A stretch of DNA of 64,000 nt from Apostichopus japonicus. Taxonomy: Eukaryota; Echinodermata; Holothuroidea; Aspidochirotida; Stichopodidae. Of this stretch, positions 20,453 through 36,864 are shown in pieces. The stretch spans positions 6,478,501 through 6,542,500 of the forward strand of contig NC_092562.1 in the NCBI RefSeq assembly GCF_037975245.1, read 5' to 3'. The position numbers were made by a program, and so were the translations under genes. A model generated the notes under the pieces. The model saw nothing but the letters and a program-made list of their open reading frames with translations. It did not search any database and had not been told where the DNA came from. How positions within the stretch are numbered: position 1 is the stretch's first letter; each line of letters starts with the position of its first letter.

Positions 20453-20560
20453 TTAGAACTTTAAGGATGAACCCCAAAGAACCCTGTCATACTTCTCTCG
20501 AAGACGTCTTTCAATCTCAACGGAGTGCTCTGAATCTCTGGTTTCAACTACCACTTTAAC
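20453..20560 (-). CDS. Dehydratase last coding exon: ACT end and stop
   Basis: Encodes [20 protein letters not shown], then [12 protein letters not shown] and TAA (20455-20453). 'VETRD.EH..E...L' closes the ACT domain. Acceptor CTTCCAAATTAG. No clear polyadenylation signal was found in the next 500 bases. Confidence 0.92.
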   Translation of the reverse strand, partial: VKVVVETRDSEHSVEIERRLREKYDRVLWGSSLKF

Positions 20561-23500
20561 CTAATTTGGAAGAAAAATATGACAAATGTTTCAAAATGTA
20601 AGGTATATATAACTAAAAGGTAATGGTGCAGTGAGTTCTTAATGCAGTACATGTACACTTTGCAGCATTTCCATATCGAAGAAAAAGTGGAAATTTGCTA
20701 GGCCATACACGACATATTTTGCATTACCATGCATATACAACTAATATACGTTAAGCCTGCACACCTTAACTGCATAACACAAAGTGATCACCGAAAGCTT
20801 CCACAGTGAGTGGCAAATACAAATATATTTAAAATTTTTGACTTCAGTTTCCCTATTAGTACATGCAGCAAAGCTTACACTCGTTTAATATAAATTAACA
20901 GCTCTGTATGATATGATATTCAATGCCCTTAGACAGAACGACTAAATTACATAACATAAAGTCATTATGTTTGTTTCATTTACCATACATGACTTCAAAG
21001 TAAACTAAGATGCAAGCCACATGAATTGGGTGCTTTTTTATTTTTTGTTTATGGGACAGCTTTAGTCAACATGACAAAAACTTTTCAATTCAAATAAATG
21101 ATGATACATTGAAATTTAGTGTTCATACATTCTTGAGGCTGACAGCTCAAATAATATCATAAGTAAACAATTTCATGGCCACTGTAGTAGCAAATAGTAG
21201 CACTATGTAGGCTACATAGTGATAGGCTACAAACACTTTCTACCTGACTTCAGTTCCAATGGAGTGTCATTGTACACATTCACATATATATTGGACATAT
21301 TTTGGCAGAAAAGGCCTCTTTTTAAGTTGATCTTTCATTTACATTACAAGAAATTTCTGGATGAAGTAAAGCTCTGGGTAGAGGCAAGGATTGGGGGGTT
21401 TGCCCTCAGTTGTGGTTGAATAAATGTTAGAGTTATAGGCTACACAGCCCATCAATGACACAAATTTCTATCACTTCAAAAAATATAACTGTTACTAATT
21501 ACATTAAAGGAATAACGAAGGCAAAGGATCAAAGACAATTTATGTTATTCAGTAAGCTCAAAACTCTCTACTGTTCGATTTTTAAGTTCAACGCTTCCTG
21601 TATGAATGAATACGCTCGCTTTGAAAATTGGCTTCTAGGGCCTCACGAATGCACAGGAAGCCGCCATTGATAATTTAATATGCTTAAAATTTCATATTGA
21701 TGACGTCAGGGAGGAACAACTCACACGCTGTACTAAAGTGCAATCTGTGAACAAAAATTTTCATTAGAATTTCTGAACGAAAACGAAACAAATCAAAGAA
21801 GGTTTAATGGCAGAGTCGCAGCCTTATGATTTTGATTCTATATTAACAGCAGAGGAATTACAGACAAGGAAAACGAATAGTAAAGAGAGAAGAAGAGGAC
21901 TGTGTGTCAACTCAACTGTGCAAAGCTTCTTTCATCCCAGAAGGCTGTTTAACAGTCAATACAGACTTTGAAACCGTTTGCCAAAATAAAGCGATACTAA
22001 GAGCTACTTTAGTGATGAGGAACGACATTACGTGCCCACGTAAGGAACATTCCATTTGAATTGGATATGAAGTAAGCCTAAGTCTGGCAAGGCAGACTGT
22101 ATGCTTAATATTAGAAAGTTTTGAGGTTAAAGAATAAAATAAATTTTCTTTGATCCCTGCCTTTGTTTGTCCATCAATCTTAAGAGCCACAGGGAGAAAT
22201 GATGATAAGAAACTTCCAAGTATAAGCAACTTCTTCATCCGAAAAATGAAAACCTGTGTCCTAAAATATTTGTCTTTATATTTGAGCTTCAGAACAGACG
22301 AGCACACATGCACACTCCTACTGTAATGATGCATTTAATCTGGAGACTATTTCTAGAGTAGTTAGAGGTGAATGAAAGGATCACTTAAAGAATAAATGGA
22401 AAAAAATATCCCATAACAGAAGTTACCTGAACATGAAACACCTCACTCTTCAGCCATGCTCTTTCATGAAAGATATCTTTAATGCTGAGGAAGTAAAAAT
22501 TATGGAAAATTATCTCAAGGGTCGGACTGACTTTTAATTCTCAATTCCTCATTGCATTCTTAATAACTGAGGCTGTCAGCAAATTCAGTTTGATAGTTTT
22601 GAAGTGGCGTTTGTACCTGCATGGTCATGTGCAATGAATGCATGTCTTTTAATGCATTTATCGTTCAGAAGTCAATTCAATTTCTGATTCTAGTCTAACC
22701 ACAATAAAAATCAACTGAGAGAAGTTTTTTTTTAATGAAGGCATACACAAGTGGTACACAATGTATCCATAGCAACAAGCACACAAAGCACTATCAGTGA
22801 CAGTACTAGCTATAAATTGACATCGCACCATGCATTTACCAGGCCAGCATAACTCATTTGGTGGGAGAGTTATAACTTATAACTGTAAATTTCCTCTCAA
22901 CATGATTCATAATAGACAATAAATGACATAAGCATAAACTGAGATCATGTGCAAGCCTTGTTATATAGGCACTGTAATTGAGTACATAAAGTTGTCACAT
23001 ACACATGTAATCTTTCATTAAACTGCATTAAGTAATATGGCCTTTCATGAGCAATAATATGGCCCTTTCCAAAACCAAATGGTTGCACATCCAACTTTGT
23101 CTTTGCCATTTAATGTTCAATTACTAATTAAGCACGCTAAAAAATTTCATCAGTGCATCTTGAGAGGTTCTGATGCTGGAAAAACATCCCCATACTTGGA
23201 GGGTGGTTCACTTATGAGACACATGCTCTGCAAAAGGCAGTAAAATATCGTTAAAGTTTGAACACACGAGTGCCCATTATCTTGATTCCTATCATATTTG
23301 GGGACATATATTGATGAACTTTAAGTACAATAGGCTATACAGCCTACTACTCTAAATGCCATCAATGTGCTACTGGATTATAATGGCCACCTGCATGAGT
23401 CTAAAATTATATTTTACAATAAGTATGCATAACAATAAGTATGCTGTACATGTACAGCCCCCCCTGATGTACTCACCTAGCACCTTGGTCTGCTAACAAT

Positions 23501-26500
23501 CTAGTCAAGTCGGCGATACCTCCAGGTCGGTCACTTACAGTGACCACGAAACGACAGAGTCGTCCATCTGCTGCAAGCCCTCTCTCTAGAACACGGCCCA
23601 AAACTGTTGTGTCAATGTTGCCACCACAAAGAGGTATCGCTACCCTTAAATAGAACAAGACGTGATATGAGCCACAAAGGGTTAATTAATGTGTCTATAT
23701 TGTAAGCTATGGCTACACAGGACTAAAAGCAAGTAGTAGCCTGGGGAAAAAAAACTGAAGCCTTGTTCATCCATTAACAAAAGTTTATCATAAGCTAGTA
23801 AGCCACTAAAATACAGGCTAAATCTGCTCAGGGAGCACATTAGAGAATAAGAAGTGATACAAAAATTAATACTGCTATAAATTGTGGTGTAAGGGTACCC
23901 TGCCTCCTAGAGTGAGTATGAATCACAAGTCGCTAATAGCTAGGCTTCTCCTAGCTAATAGTCACTAACAGCAAGGCTTCTCTTAGCTACTTGTTGTTAA
24001 TAGCTGGGCTTCTCCTAGCTACTTGTCACTAATAGCTAGGCTCCTCGTAGCTACTAGTTCTAGTCACTAATATGTATAGGCTTCTCCTAGTTACTAATCA
24101 CTAATAGCTAGGCTTCTCTTAGCTACTAGTCACTAAAAGCTAGGCTCTTCCTAGCTACTAGTCTACAGTCACTAATAGCTATAGGATTCTCCTAGCTACT
24201 AGTCATTAATACCTAGGCTTCTGTCGCTAATAGCTAGCCTTCTCCTAGCTACTATGGGCACTAATAGCTAGGCTTTCCTATAGCTACTAGTGACTAATAG
24301 CTTTAAGCTACCTCTAGCTATGTTGGTTAAATATTAAGATCTCTGTAATGAAACATATATGATGCAGACCTATCAACTCTCCCGGTTTTACCGGGAGACT
24401 CCTGGTTTATACCCGAATCTCCCAGCCTCCAGGTTTCATATTCTATTCTCCCGATTTTTAATGTTTCACCACTTGCGAAATTTCTGAAAATAGCCAACAT
24501 TTAGTCCTATGCTTATTCGCGTAATAAGTGTAATCTTAAAACAGATTGATTGTTTACAAGTATGTTACAATTAACTGACACAGTGCTGTGCGGGACTCTC
24601 AACCAATATTAAGCTACTTTGTCAGTTCTCAGACTTCGCCCAATGTCGTTATTGTACGTTGGCCTTGGTCGAGTCCTGAATACAGTACAGTAGTACGGCG
24701 TGCACTGTGCATATGCCATGGTGCACAAGTTTAATAAACACAAGTTGTCACTTGTTTGTATATGCGGCATACCTAATGTGTGCAGTACGCATGTAGGCTA
24801 CTTGTATACGACAAAAAAACAGTTAAGTTCTATGCCGGCACACACTTTACCTGCGTCCTCTTCAATGCTAGGTAAATATCACGTCTTAAACTACGATTTA
24901 AGAAATGGCTGTTTCAAACATCTCACTAATTCTTTCGGCGACTTTAATCCCTATTCATTGAGCACAATAGCATAACCTGCTTATAAACTGGTACAGGGAT
25001 TATACGAGGTGTCTACACGGCAATTTATTTGTCAACGATTTTATACGCGATTGTATTTGTTTATACATCTTTATACGATCCTGTGCGCGTACACATGTCC
25101 AGTTATACATGAGCGGCACTATAGACTATTTATTTAGGAGTATTTATATAATTTCAGTTGAAAATTACCAACCTCCCTATTTTCTCCTTATTCTCCCGGT
25201 TTTTGGCCCTGAAAAATGTTATTCTCCCTATTTTGGGGTCAAACAGGTTGACAGGACACTGGCTATCATTTTAAAGGTTATTAAAATGCAGATGTGGAAT
25301 TAATGTTTACAGGACCGAGGCCTAGTTTATGTGAATTGACTATAGGGGGAATTGCACACAGACTAGCTGCTACACGGATTTTTTTCTTTATTCTAATTAT
25401 TTACAACCTTTGGCTTTAGCTACTCAGTCACTTTATTTTGTTCTTAAATGTAAATAAATTTGGATTAATAGTAAGGATATTGATATAGACATTGATATAC
25501 CTATGCGCAAACTGTACTACATTAAAGAGCAACAGCCATTCCAGGACCCCAACGTAATTAAGGTAAGAGTTGTTATAAGTTATTGGTTGAATCTCTTACT
25601 CCTGGCCTGGTTTTTTTAGCATTAAAGGCCTAGTATAATATAATATACTTACTTTTTGCCCTTCAACTCTGGTAGTTTATCTGACAATAATGCCGCCAGG
25701 GAGCAGGCGCCAGCACCTTCCACGACTGCTTTCTCGACCTCGATCAATCTCAAGATGGCCACAGCAATCAGGTCCTCACTGCCAGCAAATTAAATCAGGT
25801 CATATTTACATCATTTCATTTATATTTGTTTACAATTCAAATATGTGATTAATATGAATTCACAAACTTGTGCACACAAAACTGGAGAGGGATTATCAAT
25901 TAGGCAACATATAAAGGAAGGTACCAGGAATCGGTCATCATGTTGCCAAAGTCTATTTAGTGACATAGTAACAACAATAGCAAGTTTATTACACCTTACA
26001 AAATTACTTTAAGGGTGTGAAGACTCGCGCAAAAAGAAACGTGTAATGCAGGTAATTTGACCTAGTTTCGTATGAGGTGTAACAGAAGTGTTAAACACCA
26101 CCATCGATCCCAAAAAATACACACACAGCTTGTTACCGTCAGTAATTAGACACTAGTGTACAGTCAGTACATACAGATGAGGTCAATACCCACAGCAAAT
26201 ATCACAAACGGTACAGCAATGGACATCTCACGTCCAGCTAAAGAAAACAATTAAGGTATCACGTTTCATTACTGTCTGCATTTTGTAGCGACAAGAACAA
26301 AACCTCACTTGCAAGCAACAGAAAGTTAACTTATTCAGATGGCCGCACGCGGTTTGGGGCGAGTCTTCAATGCCGTTAACAATCTTTCTTTTTTTTCCAA
26401 TTTTTTTAATATATTGCACATGTTACCCAGAGCAAAGTTATAATGTAGATGTACTATTTTTATCAAACATTACCGGAAACACACAACAAGTTTCCGTTCA

Positions 26501-29500
26501 TGATACCACTACATTATTTTCAACTTCCATTACATTGACTCAGTTCTAAATTTCCTGTACATACAGACTTGGATAGTGCATATTGAAATCATTAGTGTGA
26601 ACAGGAAATACATAAGTATAGCTGCATTCTTGTCAAAATTATAGTGACTTTGACCTCAGTGACTTTCAAAGGACTTGCCTAAAGCCTACACTGCATTGTT
26701 GCTGTAATGTATTGCCCTGGGCTAGAAGAAATACCCCATAGTGTTCCTGTAGTAGGAGCCTCTAGGGGAACCCAACATTAAAGTGTTAAAACAAAACATC
26801 TATTAAAAATTTCAATTATAAATGCACAGGAGGGATGTGTGCATTACATGAAGGAAAGAAACTTATTCCTAACAAGAAGAATCAACAGTATCATTCAAGA
26901 GTTATTTTAACAAAAATAAATATTTTTGGAATATTTGACCATACAAAGTAGTGAATTTCCTTTGCAGCTAATGGTATTATTCCTTGTTGATAAAGAAAAA
27001 GTACAGCAACATAAATAAATCGATTGATTAAAAGTAGGTCAAATTTGTTACATAAATAATATAAGCTGTTAAAAGTATATTCCCGACAATTGACTTACCT
27101 CACAGTCACAACCTTGTCAACGATATCTCTAGCAGTAGCGAATGCATTCACACCTACCACTGGAACTGCAAGACCTGCATGTGTGTAAAAATGCAATAAA
27201 ATACTATTGTATAAAGGTAATATTTTAGAGTGAAACCAGAGCTCAACCGCATAAAACAGAATACTGAGAGGGCATCATAATTTGTCTGCAAGTATTGTTA
27301 AAGTCTTACATTTCAGAGTTCCCCAGGTATCTAACATCGATATTAGATTTTCACAGTGATGTCTGGATATGATGTAGTGGCTCGAAACATCAAGAAAAAG
27401 TAACAATCCTAAACTAAGCTTATTCAGTGAAAGGGTTTTCCAAGTGTTGAAACACTTTTGATATTTGAGTGCAATATTGATGACTGTCATCACATTGTTA
27501 ATATGAATTGACATGTTAAAATTAAAGTTCCATGTGTAAATTCACTTGCTAAATTAAACTCCTTATGTTTTTTGCTTTGTTATTATGACTAATATGTAAG
27601 GTAAACCTAGCTGGACTACATTTGCAATCAAAACGCTGTCCGACTATAACCTTTACACAATTTACACACACAAACATATCAGTAGATAACCAGTTACTGA
27701 AAACTACAATGCTCTAATTATCAAAATAACATACCATCAGCCAATGTAGGTGCTGATTTGGTGTAAGTTGGGTGACCAGCCTTCATTGCTGAAGAAAAGC
27801 TAGCACACTGCTCTGACTCAACACCCTGGAAAAGACGTGAATGAAACACTGAGAAGTTAGCTTGAGCAAGCATCATACAGATGACTGGGATCATTAATTT
27901 AAATATTGTATTATCACTTAGTATCAACCAGAGAAGAAATCAGAAAACCAAACACCTCGTTAACATTTTTAAATGTTACTGTAAACAGTAAGCATCTTGC
28001 AGATGACTGGGATCATCAATTTAAATATTGTATTATCACCTAGTATCAGCCAGAGCAGAAATCAGAAAACCAAACACCTTGTTAACATGTTGAAAAGTCA
28101 CTGTAAACAGTAAGCATCTTGCAGATGACTGGGATCATTAATTTAAATATTGTATTATCACTTATAGTATCAGCCAGAGTAGAAATCACCAAACCAAACA
28201 CCTTGTTAACATGTTGAAAAGTCACTGTAAACAGTAAGCATCTTGCAGATGACTGGGATCATTAATTTAAATATTGTATTATCACCTAGTATCAGCCAGA
28301 GCAGAAATTAGAAAACCAAGTACCTTGTTAACATGTTTAAAAGTCACTGTAAACAGTAAGCATCTTGCAGATCACTGGGATCATTAATTCAAATATTTTA
28401 TTATCACTTAGTATCAGCCAGGGCAGAAATCAGCAAACCCAAACACCTCGTTAACATGTTTAAAAGTCACTGTAAACAGTTTTCTTCAGGTCTCAGGCAC
28501 AACGTTTACATCGATATTAGATGTCACAGTAATATTCAATCCACATGTCTGACAATTTCATATTTTATAAAGCTTCTCCTAGCAGAAAGAAGATGGACAA
28601 CTGTACCAGCATGTACTTGCCATGTGAGGGAAACAAGAACATACTAACATTCATGGAGCATATCTGAAGCACTTTTTAATGGGATGTTTAATGCATTGTA
28701 AAATGAGTTGTTATCAAGGCCATGAAACTTTGTACTGATCCTACAGGGTACCCAGGCCACACCTTAAAATTCATATTTGATGTTTATAAATCTTGCCAAC
28801 TAGAACCTTTCAATTGATGAGAGCAATGAATCTTTTGCAACAGTGTATTATTCAGAGCCTTTGTTCTTGCCAACATGTTTTGTGATCAAAACAAAAACTA
28901 TTAATGCACACTGCAGAAGTGTATTTTGGGTTTTTTGTTTTGTATGTGCATACATTTTCAAGACTAAAGGTCTGTATAATTAATTATGAGTAGTCAGGCA
29001 TTAAGTTGTGATCCACCACATATTGGACCACTAAGTTGGTAACAGCTTATGAACCAGACCACCACCCTTCCCGCCCCCATACCTCCCCTGACTATGTTCT
29101 ACTGTATGCATACATATACTAAAGTTCATATTAGAAAAACTTCAAGTTACTCACAATGATAAGTGTTTTTGGGGACAGACTCTTAATAGCCAGTGCCATG
29201 CCAGCAATGAGTCCTCCACCACCAACAGGGATGACAACAGCATCCAAATCAGGGACCTGCTCAATAATCTCCAATCCTAATGTACCCTGACCTGCAATGA
29301 TGTTAGGATTGTCGTACCTGCAAAAAAAAGGGAATATCACAAAGTAGTCAAATATAAGTAAATAACATACAGTATTAATATAGCTCTGTACATCAATACC
29401 ATGGTAAGAGCTGCTCAAACAATTTCAGTCTTAAAGTGTCCTGACCAGCAACTATGCTTTCAATAAACCAGTAACAGCTGTTTATTTCTATAGGTACCAC

Positions 29501-32500
29501 ATAGCCTATACGTTTCATGTAGGGACCTGCTCAACAATTTGAATCCAACTCTACCATGACCAGCTCATATGTTAGGATTGTCTCAGCCCAAAGAAAATTA
29601 ACCCACCTCATTATCAACATTAAACATGAATAAAGTTTCTAACATGAATAATTCCGCATCTATGTGATGCAGGGACATGCTCAACAATTCCCAGTATTAA
29701 GGTGTCCTGACCATGCAAAGTAAATGGTATACTTCGGTAGATAGGTTCACCATTATAGGTACATTTCAGGTAGGGACCTGCTCAATTCTTTCCACATCAC
29801 ATTACAGATTTTCATGGAAATATTTCACGAAAGAACAAAATATCTCAATGGATACAATTCATTGCACAACTTAAACACCTGAAGCTAATGATACTTTATA
29901 AATCACTCAGCAATTGACCAAAACCATGTCAACATACCTACAAGAAATTCCCAACCGACTCTCATAACAGTAGATAATGGCTAGACGTGTATATTTCAGT
30001 TGCTGTTAATTCACTTCAATTGTAATCTCAATTTGTGTCAAATATTGACAATCCTCCTATTTTTAAAAATACTAAATGTATTTAAATATATTTTGACTGC
30101 AAGAAAAAACTCAACTGAATTGATTACTTGCTGTGAAAGATATTTCTTAATAAATCCATATCGATCCAATCATTTGGTTCACAAAGATACATCCATCTTA
30201 CCCATTGACATAAAGCAAGTGCTTCTCTTTGGCAAGTTTCATTGCATAGCTCTTGGACTAGAGTAAAGAAAGAAAATAGAAAAAGAACGAATAACGGCTG
30301 ACCTTAAGTCTTGTAATAGTACAGAAATGTTGTAAGCTTTCATAAAATTTTCAACTTATAATAGAATAATTGTGCAATCCCTGGGGGACTTCTCATAGGG
30401 TCCAGCCACAAACCGGTGCACACAACTATATTTACAAGTCCCCTTGCAGGTCCCTATTTATACACCTGGATGAAGTTGGGCCACAGAGATAAAGTGCCTG
30501 GCCAAAGGCATCAAGGTAATGATACGGCCAGGACACAAACCTGCAATCCTTTGATCACAAGTCCATTGCCTCAGAACATTTGGCAATGAGCAACGCCCTC
30601 CGCTGTAAAGGTGTGGTCCTGTAAGGAACACCTGAATTGGGCATTATGACTATTCCCCTTGCTCACTAGCTTCACTGTTGAAGATAAATCCTCCATCCAT
30701 TGAGGAAACTGATTGCGGTTCAAGTACAATACACATTTTTGAGGTAATAAGCATTGTCTCCTGTAATCTCAACTTGAAGGATACATGTACAGGTTTGCCA
30801 ATAATGTCTGACTTTGTATTGATGCAGCCAGTAATTATAATATCACTAAACTGAATTGTAAATATGACTGCAAAGTGCACTTAACCAAATTTATTCACCA
30901 TTCTATCAGCAGATCTTACAATCAAAACCAGTTACTACTATACCAGAATTCCGGAATTCTTCACTACAGTATTGCAGAGGGAGGGGGCAGCTGAGTGAGG
31001 AGGGGGGGAGGAGAAATACAGATCAGCTTCAATAACTCTTGCAAAAAACGTTACCACTGCTGAGCAAAATGAAAATCAAGTTTATCAATATGCTAAGTTC
31101 TAAGTTTTATTAAGATGAACATTTTGAAACACATCCAATGACCCACCCACCCACGCCAGGGAGTAATTGCAAGGAACACTAACCACTCCGATATCTTCTC
31201 CATGTATAATGACATTGGCACCGTACTGCTTGCACATACTGACTTTCATGATCGGAGCAATGAGAGGCATCACCACAAATATTGGTATACCAAGGTCCCT
31301 GCCATGGTAGCTGAGGGCCAAGGCATGGTTACCTGCAGAGGCAGCAATCACCCCATTTCTCCTTTGTTCCTGAAAGAAGAATATGAGCATTGTTGAATTG
31401 TTAATGAGAAATAGCTAAGTCTTCATAAAACAAACTTTTCTCACTTGCTCAGCATTCAAGTTCAATTTATGATGATTGACCCTCCATGTTTATTAAGTCA
31501 CCATCAGGGCACAACCAAGGATACTTGGCTCAGCCCCCTCCCCCCCCCACCCCCCACCGACAGACAGGTACATTACACATTTCAATGCTGTACAACCCAA
31601 ACAGTCAAAAACTTCTTGTTTCAAAAGGTACAAATATAGCACCATTTTGCATCTAAGCACCCATCTTTTTATCAAGATTTCTCACAGTGGGAGCAACACC
31701 CTTCTCCTAAGAACCCTCGCTTGCACATTGTAACACCTTGACCACCCTCCCCTGGCCCCAGTACTAAGCAGGTCGCTGCAATCTTGGTCACCATTGGTTT
31801 GCTAACCATCTTGCAGACATGATATGGCAAAACCCCATCAAGGAATAATTAAAGGTCTATTTTTGTGTAGCTTAAACTGGCTATGAATTTTGTCATTCAT
31901 AAAACACACTAGTTTCTGTGGGAACCACAACTGATTTATACCTCTTTGTACTTGTATAGCAAGTTATGGCCCAGAGTATTTTGTGATGAGATATCAGATA
32001 AATTGTTTCCTACCCATATCATACACAGTATCCTAATTCAACTTTACAACTGTTTTGCTTTCCCAATTAAGGTTTTGGGTAAAGTATAATATACTCACTC
32101 TAAGTTATTCAACCCTTCTTCTAGACCAGTTTTGCCCATGTAATGCACTATAATATATTGACCTTCTACTGGATGTACAGTAAGGTATGATAAAAATCAT
32201 AGGTACACTAGTTTATCCACCCTATCATCCATTAATGACCGAAGCATTGTCTTTACATGCCTAACCAGAATATATCATGATCTATCAGCTAAAACAGTTT
32301 TTTGCTTTCCCAATACAATTTACTTACACAACACAACATAAGAAGTGTGTTTATAACTCCCCTCTCTTTAATCACTTACCTCTGATAACATAAGAAGTGT
32401 GTTTCTAGCTCCCCTCTCTTTAATCAATTACCTCTGACAACATAAGAAGTGTGTTTATAACTCCCCTCTCTTTAATCACATACCTCTGATAACATAAGAA

Positions 32501-35262
32501 GTGTGTTTCTAGCTCCCCTCTCTTTAATCAATTACCTCTGACAACATAAGAAGTGTGTTTATAACTCCCCTCTCTCTAATCACTTACCTCTGATAACATA
32601 AGAAGTGTGTTTCTAGCTCCCCTCTCTTTAATCAATTACCTCTGATAACATAAGAAGTGTGTTTCTAGCTCCCCTCTCTTTAATTAATTACCTCTGACAA
32701 CATAAGAAGTGTGTTTATAACTCCCCTCTCTTTAATCACTTACCTCTGATAACATTAGAAGTGTCTTTATAGCTCCCTCTCTTTATTCACCTACCTCTGA
32801 CATCATAAGAAGAGTGTTTCTAGCTCCCCTCTCTTTAATCACTTACCTCTGACAACATAAGAAGTGTGTTTCTAGCTCCCCTTCATTTAATCACTTACCT
32901 CTGATAACATAAGAAGTGGGTTTATAGCTCCCCTCTCTTTAATCACTTACCTCTGATAACATAAGAAGTGTGTTTCTAGCTCCCCTTCATTTAATCACTT
33001 ACCTCTGATAACATAACAAGTGTGTTTCTAGCTCCCCTCTATTTACAGTATTCACTTACCTCTGACATCATAAGAAGAGTGTTTCTAGCGCCCCTCTCTT
33101 TAAAACTGCAACAATGAAAGGAAGGTGGAAAAGATAAAAACATAATAATTAAACCTTCAGAGTGGTTAGATGCCATAAATAAGGGAAGCTAAATCCAGCA
33201 TTAATAAGGTATATCTACATATAGTATGAAATTCACCATAGCTAGTAGATTCTGTTTACAAGACCTTCATAGTTTGACCTTATGGCCAATGATCTGCATA
33301 AAAATCTGAAAGGAGTCTTCTATTCACTAAGATGAATGCATAAATACCAAACATAAATAATAATGGTTTCTATATGCAGTGGCGCTTTAAAAAAAACACA
33401 ACCACACCCTAAAGCAGTACTAGTGAAATGCAACCCAGAACAGATGTGTTTTAAGTTTGCTCCTAAAACTTGTGAAGGAACAACACGACTGAATTTCAGT
33501 AGGTAAGCTGTTCCACTCCCTTGAACCTGCCACAGAATAAACCTGATCACCAAAGGTCTTAGTCCTAGTTTTCAGAACAACCTTATTAGTTCCAGACCTT
33601 TTCTTGTTAAGGATCAACTTGGCGGCAAAAATTTGACCTCTTTGCAATTTGAAAAGGGATGAATTAGGTTAACCAAACAGTTAAGTACAAGTAGTCCAGT
33701 TGGGATTAAAACCAATGAATGTATCACCTGTTCAAGAGATTTTCTGCTCCGATGCAAATTAACAATGGATCCAAGCTTTACTTCTAACCATTATTTTGTC
33801 TAGGTCTCTATTGTCAGTTTTGACATCTATAGGACACAAGTGTTCTATCACAACAACCATTTTCAATAGGGCGCTTGTGCACATTAACTTGGTTCTGTTG
33901 TACTATACTTGATCTAACAAATATGATAGTTCAACTACTAAGCTGCATGTTTTGTAAGGGATATATCTTGTCAACAGAATGTGATATATGCACACATACT
34001 GTAGACACAGACACGCACATGCACCCAAGGATCAGAAGCAACCATTTTAAATGATTTAAAACACCAAACAATAGCATTATAACATTCAATTTAGGCACAA
34101 GAAAGTTGTGAAAGCTTCTCAAACCATTGATAAAAATAACATATCTGAATGATAGAACTAAACCACACATGGCAAGATTATAGAGAGATTGTCATTACCA
34201 TTTTGTCCTTCAAATACACATTCGCTTTTGTAGCATTCAAGTTAACGTATCATCCTACTGTATATTGGGTAAGAAATATATTCAAGTGTTTACATTGACA
34301 CATGTAAAGCACATGACTGCTACATAAGGTTTCCGAGAATCTTCACTTACCTGCCAGTTATCTGTTGGAAATCACTCTTGATGTACAGTTCCAATCCTAA
34401 CATATCAGATAGTCGGGATTTCTAAGAGGAATCAGAGAGATAATATGCATCATAGATATAAAACTGAGACAATCAGACCCTGCCAACCTGAGAAAATCTA
34501 ACGTGCTCTGTGACAGCCATCGTTCACAATATGATACCACCAATACACCTCCAAGGGAATCTGGGTAAAAAAATTGCAAAATAGAAAGAGGACTTTGCAA
34601 CTTCAAATGTCCTGTCTTAGACCCCCCCCCCCCATATGCTTCCACTCTCTACACCTCCTTCCTCTATTCCTAAATTGTAGACAATTACCTCCAAGACTAT
34701 CTCACCCAGCTGTAAAACATCCACCTTACAAACTGACTCTTATTATTTAGAATAAAATGAAACTGTTAGCAAACTGCTTATCCACTAGAGAGCCTGTGTA
34801 GGAGAATGTGTTTAAAGTAAGTTGGCCTGACGTTTCGATCCTAGCAGGATCTTCTGCAAAGGCTAAATGACAAGTTACAGTAACAGAAGGGACAAAAAAC
34901 ACATTTTTTACACATGTTTCTTATTATTTAGCTAGTATTTCACTCCAGATTATACCTGGCAGGAGGTCCTTTGAACTCCATTCCGTATCTTGTAGGCTGC
35001 TGCACTAACGTCTTGAAATTTGACTTTGACTGGATTATCAGGATCACACGCCGGATCCTTTATCTCTTCCTCGTCCACCTTCGAGATTGTTAATTCATTC
35101 ATACTATGATCCATTCTACCATGATGGTCTGCTGATCCATTCACAGCAGGGTGATCTGATCCATTTGTCTGTGGTAAAGACGACCCCTTGACCTGGCTCG
35201 AAGATGATGATTTTGTCGGCGAGGGACGGTCTGAACTTTCGGTTTCTTGTGATGACGGCATT
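20453..35262 (-). CDS. PLP-dependent L-threonine/serine dehydratase with ACT domain (gene span, twelve coding exons)
   Basis: Coding exons in transcript order: 35262-34956 (ATG 35261), 34421-34351, 33105-33060, 31369-31184, 30257-30202, 29317-29155, 27825-27735, 27174-27099, 25778-25653, 23644-23477, 22484-22427, 20560-20453. All have GT/AG borders and matching phases, giving 484 aa. Fold-type II PLP enzyme: SFKERGARN with the Schiff-base lysine at residue 128, SAGNHA at 152-157, the PLP-phosphate loop GGGG at 254-257, and CGGN at 380-383. The ACT domain (about 405-476) contains the family motif DRPGGIADL. The likely reaction is L-threonine (or L-serine) to 2-oxobutyrate (or pyruvate) plus ammonia, in the cytosol. 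The ACT domain suggests allosteric control by an amino acid. The N-terminal 70 residues are Ser-rich and look disordered. It resembles the medium-length IlvA/TdcB-type enzymes with a C-terminal ACT, longer than serine racemase, which lacks ACT. Serine racemase activity cannot be excluded from sequence. Confidence 0.92.
21701..21708. promoter_or_regulatory. Perfect CRE (TGACGTCA)
   Basis: Palindromic CREB/ATF consensus about 100 bp upstream of the P2X7-tail-like pseudogene ATG. The spacing fits a promoter for that element, but function is inference. Confidence 0.35.
21807..22059 (+). pseudogene. P2X7 C-terminal-tail-like protein fragment (broken)
   Basis: Two frames together resemble the intracellular cysteine-rich domain found in P2X7 receptors and in many lineage-expanded invertebrate proteins. 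21807-21971 starts [20 protein letters not shown] and continues [11 protein letters not shown]; 21940-22059, in another frame, reads [20 protein letters not shown] then RATLVMRND, matching the 'C.T.H..F..VCL...VL..AL' part. The expected WC.C..C...PT..E..CC segment between them is missing and the frame shifts, so it is a decayed copy. It is antisense to the dehydratase, between coding exons 11 and 12. Confidence 0.55.
22427..22484 (-). CDS. Dehydratase coding exon 11: ACT domain
   Basis: Encodes [20 protein letters not shown]; together with the previous exon this gives '...[17 protein letters not shown]', a typical ACT helix-strand. Acceptor CTTCCTCAG, donor CAG|GTAACT. Confidence 0.92.
23477..23644 (-). 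CDS. Dehydratase coding exon 10: CGGN motif and start of ACT
   Basis: Encodes [20 protein letters not shown], then [19 protein letters not shown]. This is the end of the catalytic fold joined to the ACT domain. Acceptor TCTATTTAAG, donor AG|GTGAGT. Confidence 0.94.
23925..24320. repeat. ~32-bp tandem array with palindromic core
   Basis: About eleven copies around CACTAATAGCTAGGCTTCTC followed by CTAGCTACTAGT. Each copy can fold on AGCTAGG...CCTAGCT. Intronic in the dehydratase gene. Confidence 0.9.
24368..25262. mobile_element. Possible non-autonomous DNA element with CTCCCGGTTTT ends
   Basis: The left end reads ACCTATCAACTCTCCCGGTT; the right end, reverse complemented, reads TCCTGTCAACCTGTTTGACC with a nearby GGCCAAAAACCGGGAGAAT. 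Related but imperfect inverted ends around a 0.9-kb unit without a real ORF. Target-site duplication not resolved. Confidence 0.4.
25653..25778 (-). CDS. Dehydratase coding exon 9
   Basis: Encodes [20 protein letters not shown], then [19 protein letters not shown]. The 'VSE..I..A...L...EK.V.EGAGA..LAA' run is conserved in threonine dehydratases. Acceptor TTGCTGGCAG, donor AA|GTAAGT. Confidence 0.93.
26009..26379. mobile_element. TTAA-bounded MITE, copy 1
   Basis: TTAA flanks both ends. The left end reads GGGTGTGAAGACTCGCGC; the right end, reverse complemented, reads CGGCATTGAAGACTCGCCCC. The interior is shared in order with 43716-44060 (GAGGTGTAACAGAAGTGTTA, ACCATCGATCCCA, GGTATCACGTTTCATTACT, TGCATTTTGTAGCGACAA). 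A TTAA target is typical of piggyBac-type transposases. Intronic in the dehydratase gene. Confidence 0.75.
27099..27174 (-). CDS. Dehydratase coding exon 8
   Basis: Encodes [20 protein letters not shown] then KVVTV. GLAV completes the TLADGLAV signature shared with the previous exon. Acceptor CACACATGCAG, donor AG|GTAAGT, phase 1 to 2. Confidence 0.92.
27735..27825 (-). CDS. Dehydratase coding exon 7
   Basis: Encodes [19 protein letters not shown] then [11 protein letters not shown]. The first residues follow ...KTLII as in 'IIGVE', with A.S...A...G...., and TLADG is a family signature. Acceptor CTTTTCCAG, donor GATG|GTATGT, ends in phase 1. Confidence 0.92.
27881..28480. repeat. 122-bp tandem array
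   Basis: About five copies starting at 27881, 28003, 28125, about 28249 and about 28371, each ATGACTGGGATCATTAATTT, then ATTGTATTATCAC and AACACCTTGTTAACATG. It starts 55 bp upstream (in transcript sense) of coding exon 7's acceptor and extends into the intron. Confidence 0.9.
29155..29317 (-). CDS. Dehydratase coding exon 6: GQGT and PLP-phosphate loop
   Basis: Encodes [17 protein letters not shown], then [24 protein letters not shown] binds the PLP phosphate. Acceptor TTTTTTTTGCAG, donor ATT|GTGAGT. Degenerate echoes of its first half lie just upstream, at 29405-29800. Confidence 0.94.
29405..29800 (-). repeat. Degenerate exon-derived echoes in the intron before coding exon 6
   Basis: Four fragments resemble the exon segment around 29251-29315 (AGGGACCTGCTCAATAATCT, ATCCTAATGTACCCTGACC, ATGTTAGGATTGTC on the + strand): at about 29405, 29521 (AGGGACCTGCTCAACAATTT ... 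ATGTTAGGATTGTC), 29671 (AGGGACATGCTCAACAATTC) and 29772 (AGGGACCTGCTCAATT). Spacing is irregular (101-154 bp) and frames are broken. Confidence 0.6.
30202..30257 (-). CDS. Dehydratase coding exon 5
   Basis: Encodes [19 protein letters not shown], the 'EA...A..LA.E.GL.YVNG' helix. Acceptor CTTTACTCTAG, donor GG|GTAAGA, phase 0 to 2. Confidence 0.9.
30373..30620 (-). mobile_element. tRNA-derived SINE, - strand
   Basis: On the - strand the head contains AGGCAATGGACTTGTGATCA, then AAAGGATTGCAGGTTTGTGT with a box-B-like GGTTTGTGTCC. The body is GGCACTTTATCTC, CCAGGTGTATAAATAGG, GACCTGCAAGGGGACTTG, CACCGGTTTGTGGCTGG and GAAGTCCCCAGGGATTG. The box A region is decayed. It lies between coding exons 4 and 5 of the dehydratase. 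Confidence 0.65.
31184..31369 (-). CDS. Dehydratase coding exon 4: SAGNHA motif
   Basis: 62 codons, phase 0 to 0, acceptor TTCTTCTTTCAG. Encodes [19 protein letters not shown], then [15 protein letters not shown] and [13 protein letters not shown]. The donor is GTG|GTTAGT, a less common GTTAGT but the only one that keeps phase with the next exon. Confidence 0.93.
31400..32320. other. Dehydratase intron sequence between coding exons 3 and 4
   Basis: A C-run at 31536-31548 and otherwise unremarkable AT-rich sequence. No ORF here has both splice sites and protein-like sequence. Confidence 0.5.
32320..33059 (-). repeat. 52-bp array made of the PLP-lysine exon plus its 5' splice site
   Basis: Fourteen tandem copies directly after the true exon in transcript sense. 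Each unit is about 44 bp of exon (AAAGAGAGGGGAGCTAGAAA, then CACACTTCTTATGTTATCAG and AG) plus GTAAGTGATT or GTAATTGATT. Many copies still read [14 protein letters not shown]. Copies 1-8 alternate two subtypes (CTAGCTCC / ATAACTCC on the + strand), so a 104-bp higher-order unit was amplified. No copy has a polypyrimidine acceptor. Reading through a donor gives an in-frame TAA (GTA AGT GAT TAA). Confidence 0.92.
33060..33105 (-). CDS. Dehydratase coding exon 3 (PLP-lysine exon, source of the array)
   Basis: 46 nt, acceptor GTTGCAG|T and donor GAG|GTAAGT. Encodes [16 protein letters not shown], with the lysine that forms the Schiff base with PLP. Fourteen degenerate copies of this exon plus donor follow in the downstream intron. 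Only this copy has an acceptor and joins both neighbours in frame. In the findings it is called exon 4 when the 5' UTR exon is counted. Confidence 0.93.
33420..33660 (-). mobile_element. CR1/Jockey-like LINE reverse transcriptase C-terminal fragment
   Basis: The - strand frame reads [20 protein letters not shown], then [20 protein letters not shown] and HLFWVAF before a stop. 'FG...FSVA..R.WNSLP..I.....F...LKTHLF' is the usual C-terminal end of CR1/L2/Jockey-group ORF2 proteins. 5'-truncated. Intronic in the dehydratase gene. Confidence 0.8.
33661..34350. other. Dehydratase intron, nothing specific seen
   Basis: No ORF with conserved-looking sequence and no clear repeat copies within the window. 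Confidence 0.45.
34351..34421 (-). CDS. Dehydratase coding exon 2
   Basis: Encodes [20 protein letters not shown] then ITG, the 'TP...S..LS...G..LY.K.E..Q.TGSFK' lead-in to the PLP lysine. Acceptor TCCTCTTAG, donor AG|GTAAGT, ends in phase 2. Confidence 0.92.
34800..34910 (-). mobile_element. Penelope-like terminal fragment with hammerhead-like hairpin
   Basis: On the - strand 34860-34825 reads TTTGCAGAAGATCCTGCTAG, then GATCGAAACGTCAGG. This is a GATCC/GGATC stem followed by GAAAC, as in a hammerhead stem II and the following GAAA. The upstream CUGANGA half is degraded (GCAGAAG). Confidence 0.4.
34956..35262 (-). CDS. Dehydratase coding exon 1: start and disordered N-terminus
   Basis: Acceptor ATTTCCACAG, then A-ATG. 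Encodes [20 protein letters not shown], a polar tail, then [20 protein letters not shown], the entry helix of the PLP fold, ending at CAG|GTATAA in phase 0. This is the first ATG after the acceptor. Confidence 0.9.
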
Positions 35263-35718
35263 CTGTGGAAATAATGAATATATAGTACAAATTAGCATTG
35301 TTTCATTTGAAATATTTACTATCTGCCCAGCTCTATCAACAACTGGAGTTTGAATTAGAATATATGTCATGAACACTCATGATCAATTGACTTTAGTATC
35401 CTGCACCTTAGGTAACAATTACATACATGTGCAGACATCATGAGACATGTCTATAACTTTTTTCTTGTGTTGCTGTGAAATAACCCGAAACAATTATCCG
35501 GACGCATATTTTCCTAATGGTTCATTGGATAACTCAAAGTAACTATTTGCTTTAATTGCACATGAGAAAATTTATGACAGGAATCGACTTCATCATGAAA
35601 AGATTAGAAAAAATTACAATTAAAGGAATTATTCGCAGGCAATGCATGCATGGCTAATCCTTTTCACAACTCCACTAAAAAAGAGCACAAAACACTAGAG
35701 CCTACACATATCATGCCT

Positions 35719-35905
35719 GCAGCTGGTTGGGTTGAAAATATTGTGGATTACCTCTCCAATGTGGTGCAGCTGGTAGGGTTGAAATTATTGTGGATAACTT
35801 CTCCAATGTGGTGCGGCTGGTACTGTTGAAATTATTGTAGATGACCTCTCCAATGTGGTGCAGCTGGTAGGGTAGAAATTATTGTGGATAACGTCTCCAA
35901 TGTGG
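35719..35905. repeat. 47-bp tandem array, four copies
   Basis: Unit GCAGCTGGTAGGGTTGAAAT, then TATTGTGGATAACTTCTCCA and ATGTGGT. Lies in the dehydratase 5' UTR intron. Confidence 0.9.
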
Positions 35906-36864
35906 TTTACATTACTAGCAACTGACCCCAAAACTGATAGTGAGCTGAATACATGTACTGACCAGTGGAGTCCCTTAAGTTAGCCAAATATCTGAACAAA
36001 CCTTTTCGGGGATAATATCAGACATCTCAACCCTCGGAATATGCTCTTAGATACTCTTACTCAAAACAATTGAAACTAATATACTACATATACAGGAGAA
36101 CAGTGGCTTGTACTATATGGTGTCATAGTAAATACCAGTTATATCAAATTTGGAAAAGTCCCAGCAATGTACGTGTACACAAAATGGGCTACTTGATGAA
36201 AATTAATGTGCATGTCAATATATGAATTTGTACACAATTCTTGCAATAAGATTACAACAATGGACAATGTTAATGTGATTTCATTGATTTCAACTAATTT
36301 GTTGGAACTTGATGACGTAGAATTGAAATAACACGTTTTGCAATCTGATACCCAAGCCAAACCAAACAAACAGGACGAATATATAAATTTAACTTAAACT
36401 TGTATTGGTATAGACTAAAAGCTACTGCGTATATTATGAAGGAATTAATGCATATTTACATTTATGTGAATGCTTTATAAATGACATGAGAAAAAATTAT
36501 GTATTATATGCTGACTGTTTTGTATTGAAAAGAGGAAGAGTATAAATGGAGGGGGCAATTATAGCCCTTTAGGCTATAGTACTACTGTACAATAACCTAA
36601 GCATAAATACTTCCACGGTCTGGCTGACATTAACTTCTGGTTGTGAAAGTAGGTGTTAAATGGCATGTTGTGAAAACTTTATATGCGATACTTAGTGAAG
36701 AGTAACACACTCAGGTACATTTCGAGCCAATCTAGTCAGTTGACGCAATCATGAACACAAATGCACAATGTGCACATCAGCCTTGTACGACTCACTCAAA
36801 CAAACACAGGATATAACTATTTTATAGAAAGCACGACACTTCATGTAAACAACAATTTTCTCAC

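Follow-up and report, generated by a model that had tools for sequence, protein, structure and literature searches.

An exon-born boundary minisatellite in a threonine ammonia-lyase gene of the sea cucumber Apostichopus japonicus

The window considered here, a 64,000-nucleotide stretch of the Apostichopus japonicus genome (NCBI RefSeq assembly GCF_037975245.1, contig NC_092562.1, positions 6,478,501 to 6,542,500 of the forward strand), carries a threonine ammonia-lyase gene on its minus strand. Intron 3 of this gene opens with an array of tandem copies, each consisting of nearly all of exon 3 together with its 5' splice site (donor). The array is an exon-born boundary minisatellite. Such elements are known already, although searches of the open-licence literature listed none in echinoderms, and the array is not alone in its genome. 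The reading given most weight, with a probability of about three in four, is that it is young and essentially neutral, comparable to the 'mirage' minisatellites of amphioxus, and leaves the transcript with intron 3 whenever the first donor is used.

Host gene and array

The predicted host protein matches the Pfam PALP domain (262 bits, 7.9e-78) and, at its C-terminus, the ACT domain (27.9 bits against a cut-off of 27, E 2e-6). Its matches in the PDB are threonine dehydratases and serine racemases, the best being 2gn0 (6.3e-64). With the PALP fold-II, the SFK lysine and the ACT domain all present, the enzyme is a threonine ammonia-lyase with a C-terminal ACT domain. The SFKERGARN stretch encoded by exon 3 is taken here to hold the lysine that binds pyridoxal phosphate (PLP). 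This motif is common to bacterial relatives, an open reading frame (ORF) containing it having been extracted from 33 of 80 fetched loci; the best bacterial matches of the enzyme, for a 116-residue N-terminal query, are from Planctomycetota at 54-60% identity. Exon 3 is preceded by the acceptor ttgttgcag and ends at the authentic donor GAG/GTAAGTGA at 33059 (the slash marks the exon-intron junction), and skipping of its 46 nt would break the frame.

Tandem Repeats Finder reports positions 32335-33103 as a repeat of period 52 with 14.7 copies, 89% matches and a score of 1209. The 52-bp unit is made up of nucleotides 3-46 of exon 3 (44 nt) and 8 nt of the intron, and successive donors are 52 bp apart except for the first step (57) and one other (51). 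The exon part is 81-98% identical to exon 3 across the copies. All 14 donors retain GT, in the form of GTAAGT in eight, GTAATT in four, and GTATGT and GTAGGT in one each. The authentic exon, with its acceptor, sits at the 5' end of the array and the gene model is intact. The repeat call and the alignment of the copies thus confirm the original prediction, made from the letters of the window, that the exon encoding SFKERGARN is followed by fourteen 52-bp copies of exon and donor.

A DNA search of the 671.6-Mb genome with a 208-base piece of the array gave six matches, all at the array locus. This search skips very common words, and the rarity of the unit therefore rests on an added pattern search, in which a 33-mer with up to three mismatches matched 14 times genome-wide, always in exon 3 or the array, and its reversed control not at all. 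Neither search of the genome found the unit outside exon 3 and the array. Occurrence of the unit elsewhere in the genome, which the original prediction had named as the sign that the exon was not the source, was thus looked for, and the unit was seen at the array locus only. Since the unit is found nowhere else and bacterial relatives have the motif that exon 3 encodes, this exon is the source. The same prediction had left two options, a role in tuning splicing or a young satellite born from an exon; the second is the better supported. In the paralogous PALP genes (L090-L093), 12 of 13 exon segments had no further copies at E 0.01, the only extra exon-segment match being one of 24 nt (87.5%) in L093.

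Table 1. Features of the host gene, positions in the window
Feature	Position	Strand	Details
Threonine ammonia-lyase gene	20453-35261	-	12 exons; intact coding sequence of 1452 nt, 483 residues
Exon 1	35261-34956	-	
Exon 2	34421-34351	-	
Exon 3	33105-33060	-	46 nt; PLP-lysine motif SFKERGARN; profile match to family
Exon 4	31369-31187	-	
Exon 5	30257-30202	-	
Exon 6	29317-29155	-	
Exon 7	27825-27735	-	
Exon 8	27174-27099	-	
Exon 9	25778-25653	-	
Exon 10	23644-23477	-	
Exon 11	22484-22427	-	
Exon 12	20560-20453	-	
Array	32318-33059	-	14 exon-plus-donor copies; start of intron 3
Copy 1	32993-33044	-	GTAAGT; donor 57 nt beyond authentic one
Copy 2	32941-32992	-	GTAAGT
Copy 3	32889-32940	-	GTAAGT
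Copy 4	32837-32888	-	GTAAGT
Copy 5	32785-32836	-	GTAGGT; nearest to exon, 2 differences in 52
Copy 6	32734-32785	-	GTAAGT; 1-nt deletion; fixed-width listing shares one base with copy 5
Copy 7	32682-32733	-	GTAATT
Copy 8	32630-32681	-	GTAATT
Copy 9	32578-32629	-	GTAAGT; same sequence as copy 13
Copy 10	32526-32577	-	GTAATT
Copy 11	32474-32525	-	GTATGT
Copy 12	32422-32473	-	GTAATT
Copy 13	32370-32421	-	GTAAGT
Copy 14	32318-32369	-	Diverged boundary copy, TTGT/GTAAGT; exonic TCAGAG lost
Exon 6 copy, decayed (5' part)	29521-29582	-	Intron 5; 79% over 63 nt
Exon 6 copy, decayed, partial	29670-29718	-	
Exon 6 copy, decayed, partial, weak	29408-29451	-	E 0.096
Exon 6 fragment, short	29772-29794	-	E 0.028

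Relationships among the copies

The array probably arose through a short tandem duplication, running from 2 nt inside exon 3 to about 8 nt into intron 3, which would have created a second exon end with a donor. Unequal exchange or replication slippage may then have carried the number of copies to 14, with the distal half growing latest and as two-unit blocks. In an ungapped comparison the copies differ from one another at 0-17 of 52 nt. Copies 7-14 fall into two types that mostly alternate: compared across their first 40 positions, they differ on average by 3.29 at lag 1 and by 1.83 at lag 2, as would follow if two-unit blocks had recently been added. The 104-bp higher-order alternation described from the sequence at the outset is therefore real, yet it lies mostly in this distal half. 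The homogenized distal copies and the diverged end copy (copy 14) resemble what tandem turnover produces.

The copies show no sign of selection. When the 52 octamers of the unit are ranked by exact conservation, that of the donor is at percentile 0.27, so that conservation of the donor above the rest of the unit, sought as a sign of function, was not found in the exon 3 array. Among exon 3 and copies 1-13, two of the nine donor columns and 14 of the 39 columns of the exon part are variable, numbers too small to support an argument. Read in the coding phase, copies 1, 2 and 4 contain a stop and copy 6 is frameshifted, and coding constraint on the copies was therefore rejected. The second Met of the LLMM encoded by the exon is also Met in copy 5. 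Among the remaining 13 copies, 12 have a Leu codon here, and the same Leu triplet stands in copy 6, which is frameshifted. In the bacterial set the residue here is Leu in 29 of 33 sequences and Met in four, a weak indication that the array copies may preserve an older (Leu) state of exon 3.

Alignment of each exon of the host gene against its own flanking introns gave scores of 83 for exon 3 with intron 3 and 62 for exon 6 with intron 5, the other 20 comparisons reaching 24 at most; shuffled versions of intron 5 (n = 300) scored no higher than 26 against exon 6. The 5' part of exon 6 recurs in intron 5 as four partial copies, all decayed and two only weakly matched (Table 1), and one may extend across the acceptor region (71% over 56 nt). 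A 122-bp unit repeated five times at 27868-28480 in intron 6 ends about 42 nt before exon 7 (27825); comparison of exon 7 with its flanking introns gave no second match at this repeat. Elsewhere in the window, a 47-bp unit is repeated four times at 35718-35906, upstream of the first coding exon, and positions 114-1039 hold a minisatellite whose units, each about 59 bp long, form higher-order rows. An ORF at 33420-33668 (minus strand), inside intron 2 and upstream of exon 3, presumably resembles the C-terminal end of a long interspersed nuclear element (LINE) reverse transcriptase.

Comparable arrays in this genome and in other organisms

The genome was searched for three occurrences of AGGTAAGT at short spacing, and arrays were sampled among the first ~100 places listed per search, so that the sample is confined to the first few chromosomes. 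The AGGTAAGT sample comprises 18 distinct arrays, the exon 3 array and C1:2475062 (which shares its unit with another) being left out. In 13 of the 18, the 5' edge has an ORF that runs up to the first donor and is 25 codons or longer. Thirteen edges were taken into a Pfam scan (L097, L100, L105, L107 and L110 were left out), and six of the 18 arrays carry an exon over the Pfam cut-off that ends at the first donor: Aa_trans (L094), Kri1_C (L099), TIL (L102), Glyco_transf_21 (L103), Y_phosphatase (L104) and GDA1_CD39 (L111). A 7tm_3 match in L101 (E 0.077) is under the cut-off, L096 and L098 are exon-like by eye alone, and the scan gave no family for L095, L106, L108 and L109. Replication with AGGTGAGT gave nine listed arrays (two nearby same-unit pairs being counted once each), of which eight were scanned; three of the nine have such an exon, namely Saf4_Yju2 (L152), FACT-Spt16_Nlob (L158) and Peptidase_M18 (L160), and L157 seems coding by eye, with no Pfam match.

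A Pfam-supported exon thus ends at the first donor in nine of the 27 sampled donor-motif arrays, SPT16, KRI1 and YJU2 among them; the arrays of the KRI1 and GDA1/CD39 genes have about 27 and 57 copies. In these nine, 8-33 nt of the exon are repeated before the second donor. Reading on from the donor, seven of them reach an in-frame stop within 1-6 nt, L160 after 33 nt and L152 after 36 nt. A different arrangement is seen in L098 (G000:C2:13555000-13556500), where the exon seems coding by eye alone and the 33-bp unit, being divisible by 3, is open in frame; distal donors would there add peptide repeats instead of a stop.

The reversed motif served as a control, giving in one gap range ten distinct listed arrays with 19 edges, one of which is over the Pfam cut-off. 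This control exon (L129, TLC domain) adjoins its array and is no part of it: the array stops 17 nt before the acceptor, and the unit matches the exon start at 11 of 20 positions at best. Fisher tests give p = 0.031 for nine of 27 against one of 19 edges and p = 0.23 against one of ten arrays; if only boundary-derived controls are counted, the values become p = 0.006 (0/19) and p = 0.079 (0/10). The control is weakened by the fact that test ORFs end at the first donor and control ORFs are the longest of both strands at each edge, and some of the control arrays look like simple sequence. A higher rate of exon adjacency among donor-motif arrays than among controls is accordingly weakly supported; the single exon-anchored arrays stand independently of this rate. 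The expected enrichment of AGGTAAGT was not seen (the motif had 203+85 and 209+40 places, its reverse 263+184 and 276+122), whereas AGGTGAGT is commoner than its reverse (243+323 against 156+141); these are counts of places and not of arrays, as one large array yields many places. Given these mixed counts, exon-anchored donor arrays exist in number, with no claim that donors attract arrays.

On the acceptor side, TTTNCAGG gave 190+189 places against 228+293 for its reversed motif. Here 13 arrays were picked by eye from 21 distinct listed ones, for which reason no rate is given, and five of the 13 were scanned against Pfam (L142 and L148, which have ORFs, were left out). L149 has a Patched exon at its 3' edge (1.5e-32), with a short exon-like start present three times including the exon. 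At the 3' edge of L139 (G000:C8:6646900-6648900) lies a RhoGEF exon (1.1e-4; 22.8 bits, under the cut-off of 27.6), and a 54-nt exon start occurs nine times, with CAG at eight of these places; the ninth and last in the row is the exon itself. The Pfam scan gave nothing for L143, L144 and L145.

These searches support the existence of several boundary arrays at exon ends of core genes in this genome. The uniqueness implied by the original prediction is consequently not upheld, and the catalytic nature of the exon is incidental, since unrelated genes bear such arrays.

The closest known systems are the amphioxus mirages. According to two reports (PMC3087553; PMC3902484), these are length-unstable tandem duplications of exon-intron boundaries, of either type, in Adh3, the globins BflGb6 and BflGb9 and troponin C, with similar repeats in PGBD5; reverse-transcription PCR suggested regular splicing, haplotypes vary in copy number, and concerted evolution acts inside the cluster with the boundary copies excluded. 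The mirages share with the exon 3 array a position across an exon-intron boundary, units bearing splice signals and an authentic exon at one end. They differ in that their hosts are cephalochordates, and not an echinoderm; here 44 of 46 exon nucleotides lie inside the unit. A 1995 paper on human IFI6, to judge from its title, reportedly describes a minisatellite that adjoins the end of an exon, is built from repeated donor sites and provides these donors in the transcript; the exon 3 array would be similar in position and composition. Intron gain by tandem duplication of exon segments containing AGGT is described for ATP2A1, fission yeast and a potato RNA-dependent RNA polymerase (PMC4974935). 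The exon 3 array likewise duplicates AG/GT in tandem; in those cases, however, a new intron forms within an exon, whereas the copies here lengthen an existing intron. For rainbow trout irak3, coding repeats are reported in introns, including 15-17 nt of exon 5 present four times just upstream of exon 5 (PMC6763605). That case concerns another gene, in a vertebrate, and its exon 7 repeats, unlike the present copies, are flanked by both splice signals (PMC6763605). Repeats at human exon-intron boundaries have also been reported (PMC2812944).

Splice signals and alternative readings

From the structure of the locus, we infer that the first donor is mostly used, being transcribed first and lying 46 nt from a good acceptor, and that the array then leaves with intron 3. 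Use of a distal donor would extend exon 3 by 57-732 nt, to 103-778 nt, and translation would in every case run into a TAG, in frame, 18 nt beyond the authentic junction, giving a predicted product of 147 instead of 483 residues; such occasional messages would be expected targets of nonsense-mediated decay. The truncating stop foreseen in the original prediction is hence present, although it is this TAG and not a TAA that is met first, TAA occurring in later 52-bp units.

A neutral boundary minisatellite is favoured because the host gene is intact and the unit consists of an exon end and its donor and is seen only here. The erosion of the donors (eight of 14 retain GTAAGT, and the octamer is at a low percentile) and the stops and frameshift, which argue for an absence of coding constraint, point the same way. 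The likeness to mirages is supported by similar architecture at other genes and by the regular splicing suggested for the amphioxus cases. Several observations weigh against this interpretation. Over 11 nt, seven of the array donors have exactly the sequence of the authentic donor, and they pair equally well with U1 (-11.5 kcal/mol), so that no local feature favours the first donor. The 788-nt array strand is less folded than all 20 of its shuffles (z +5.47), and masking of the array donors by RNA structure was rejected on this ground. The donor octamer ranks with the most conserved of the unit, at percentiles of 0.82-0.96, in six of nine other arrays measured. These were all selected by motif, which may explain the values, yet the donors may conceivably have a function there. 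Finally, the copy nearest to the exon is copy 5 (one of 44 exon nucleotides and one donor nucleotide differ, against 5-14 differences in 52 for the other copies) and not copy 1, where simple outward growth predicts otherwise; gene conversion may account for its closeness.

The most serious alternative, though a rather unlikely one, is a regulatory decoy array, in which identical donors compete for U1 and the number of copies sets the share of unproductive, decayed message, as in a splicing rheostat. When the 121 GT sites of exon 3 and intron 3 are ranked by pairing with the standard U1 sequence, the nine best are the authentic donor and those of copies 1-6, 9 and 13. Each distal donor would bring in the same stop, and the array RNA is, as noted, unusually unstructured. 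This proposal is countered by donors whose conservation does not exceed that of the remaining unit, by the loss of GTAAGT in six of 14 copies and by the presence of similar architecture at unrelated genes, and the amphioxus mirages are reported to leave splicing unaltered (PMC3087553; PMC3902484). The poorest U1 pairing among the 11 donors of the host gene, -3.5 kcal/mol, is that of exon 4 (GGA/GTGGTTAG at 31187), the exon directly after the array-bearing intron 3.

A broader version, in which boundary arrays form a genome-wide class located where exons of core genes end and include splicing switches that depend on array length, is judged slightly less probable still. If it were true, rapidly changing copy numbers would set the share of message ending at a built-in stop, providing heritable or somatic tuning of output.

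It is considerably less probable that the donors serve to hold U1 on the intron, suppressing premature polyadenylation or raising transcription. Eight array donors within ~0.7 kb pair with U1 as well as the authentic donor or nearly so; the erosion of donors speaks against the idea.

Stepwise removal of the intron, with the CAGAG/GTAAGT of the copies acting as zero-length exons and the protein unchanged, is very improbable. It would make the array a possible intermediate of AGGT-type intron gain, for which a duplication model has been described (PMC4974935). The original prediction held that no copy has an acceptor. This stands for a full exon, but 13 of the 14 copies carry CAGAG/GT after a tract of 58-74% pyrimidine, within the range of the 11 acceptors of the host gene (58-89%). 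The tract is, however, simply the coding end of the exon, and steps of 52 nt are near or under the usual minimum intron size.

An assembly artefact, or a collapsed or expanded repeat, can be set aside as highly improbable: tandem repeats are difficult to assemble, but most copies carry distinguishing variants, and the probable source assembly was built from PacBio HiFi reads with a mean length of 14.7 kb against an array of 0.77 kb (PMC10344927). That a pre-existing satellite gave rise to the exon is almost certainly wrong and was rejected, as no support for it was found, the genome searches confine the unit to this locus and exon 3 encodes a conserved motif of a widespread enzyme family.

The array places eight extra donors, whose U1 pairing matches or nearly matches that of the authentic one, behind a single acceptor, and constitutes a natural experiment on the choice of 5' splice site. 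The presence of such arrays at exon ends of several other genes in this genome suggests that echinoderms, too, have boundary minisatellites, which the literature searched describes mainly for amphioxus. In deuterostomes, the contribution of these elements to transcript variation and to changes in introns may have been underestimated.
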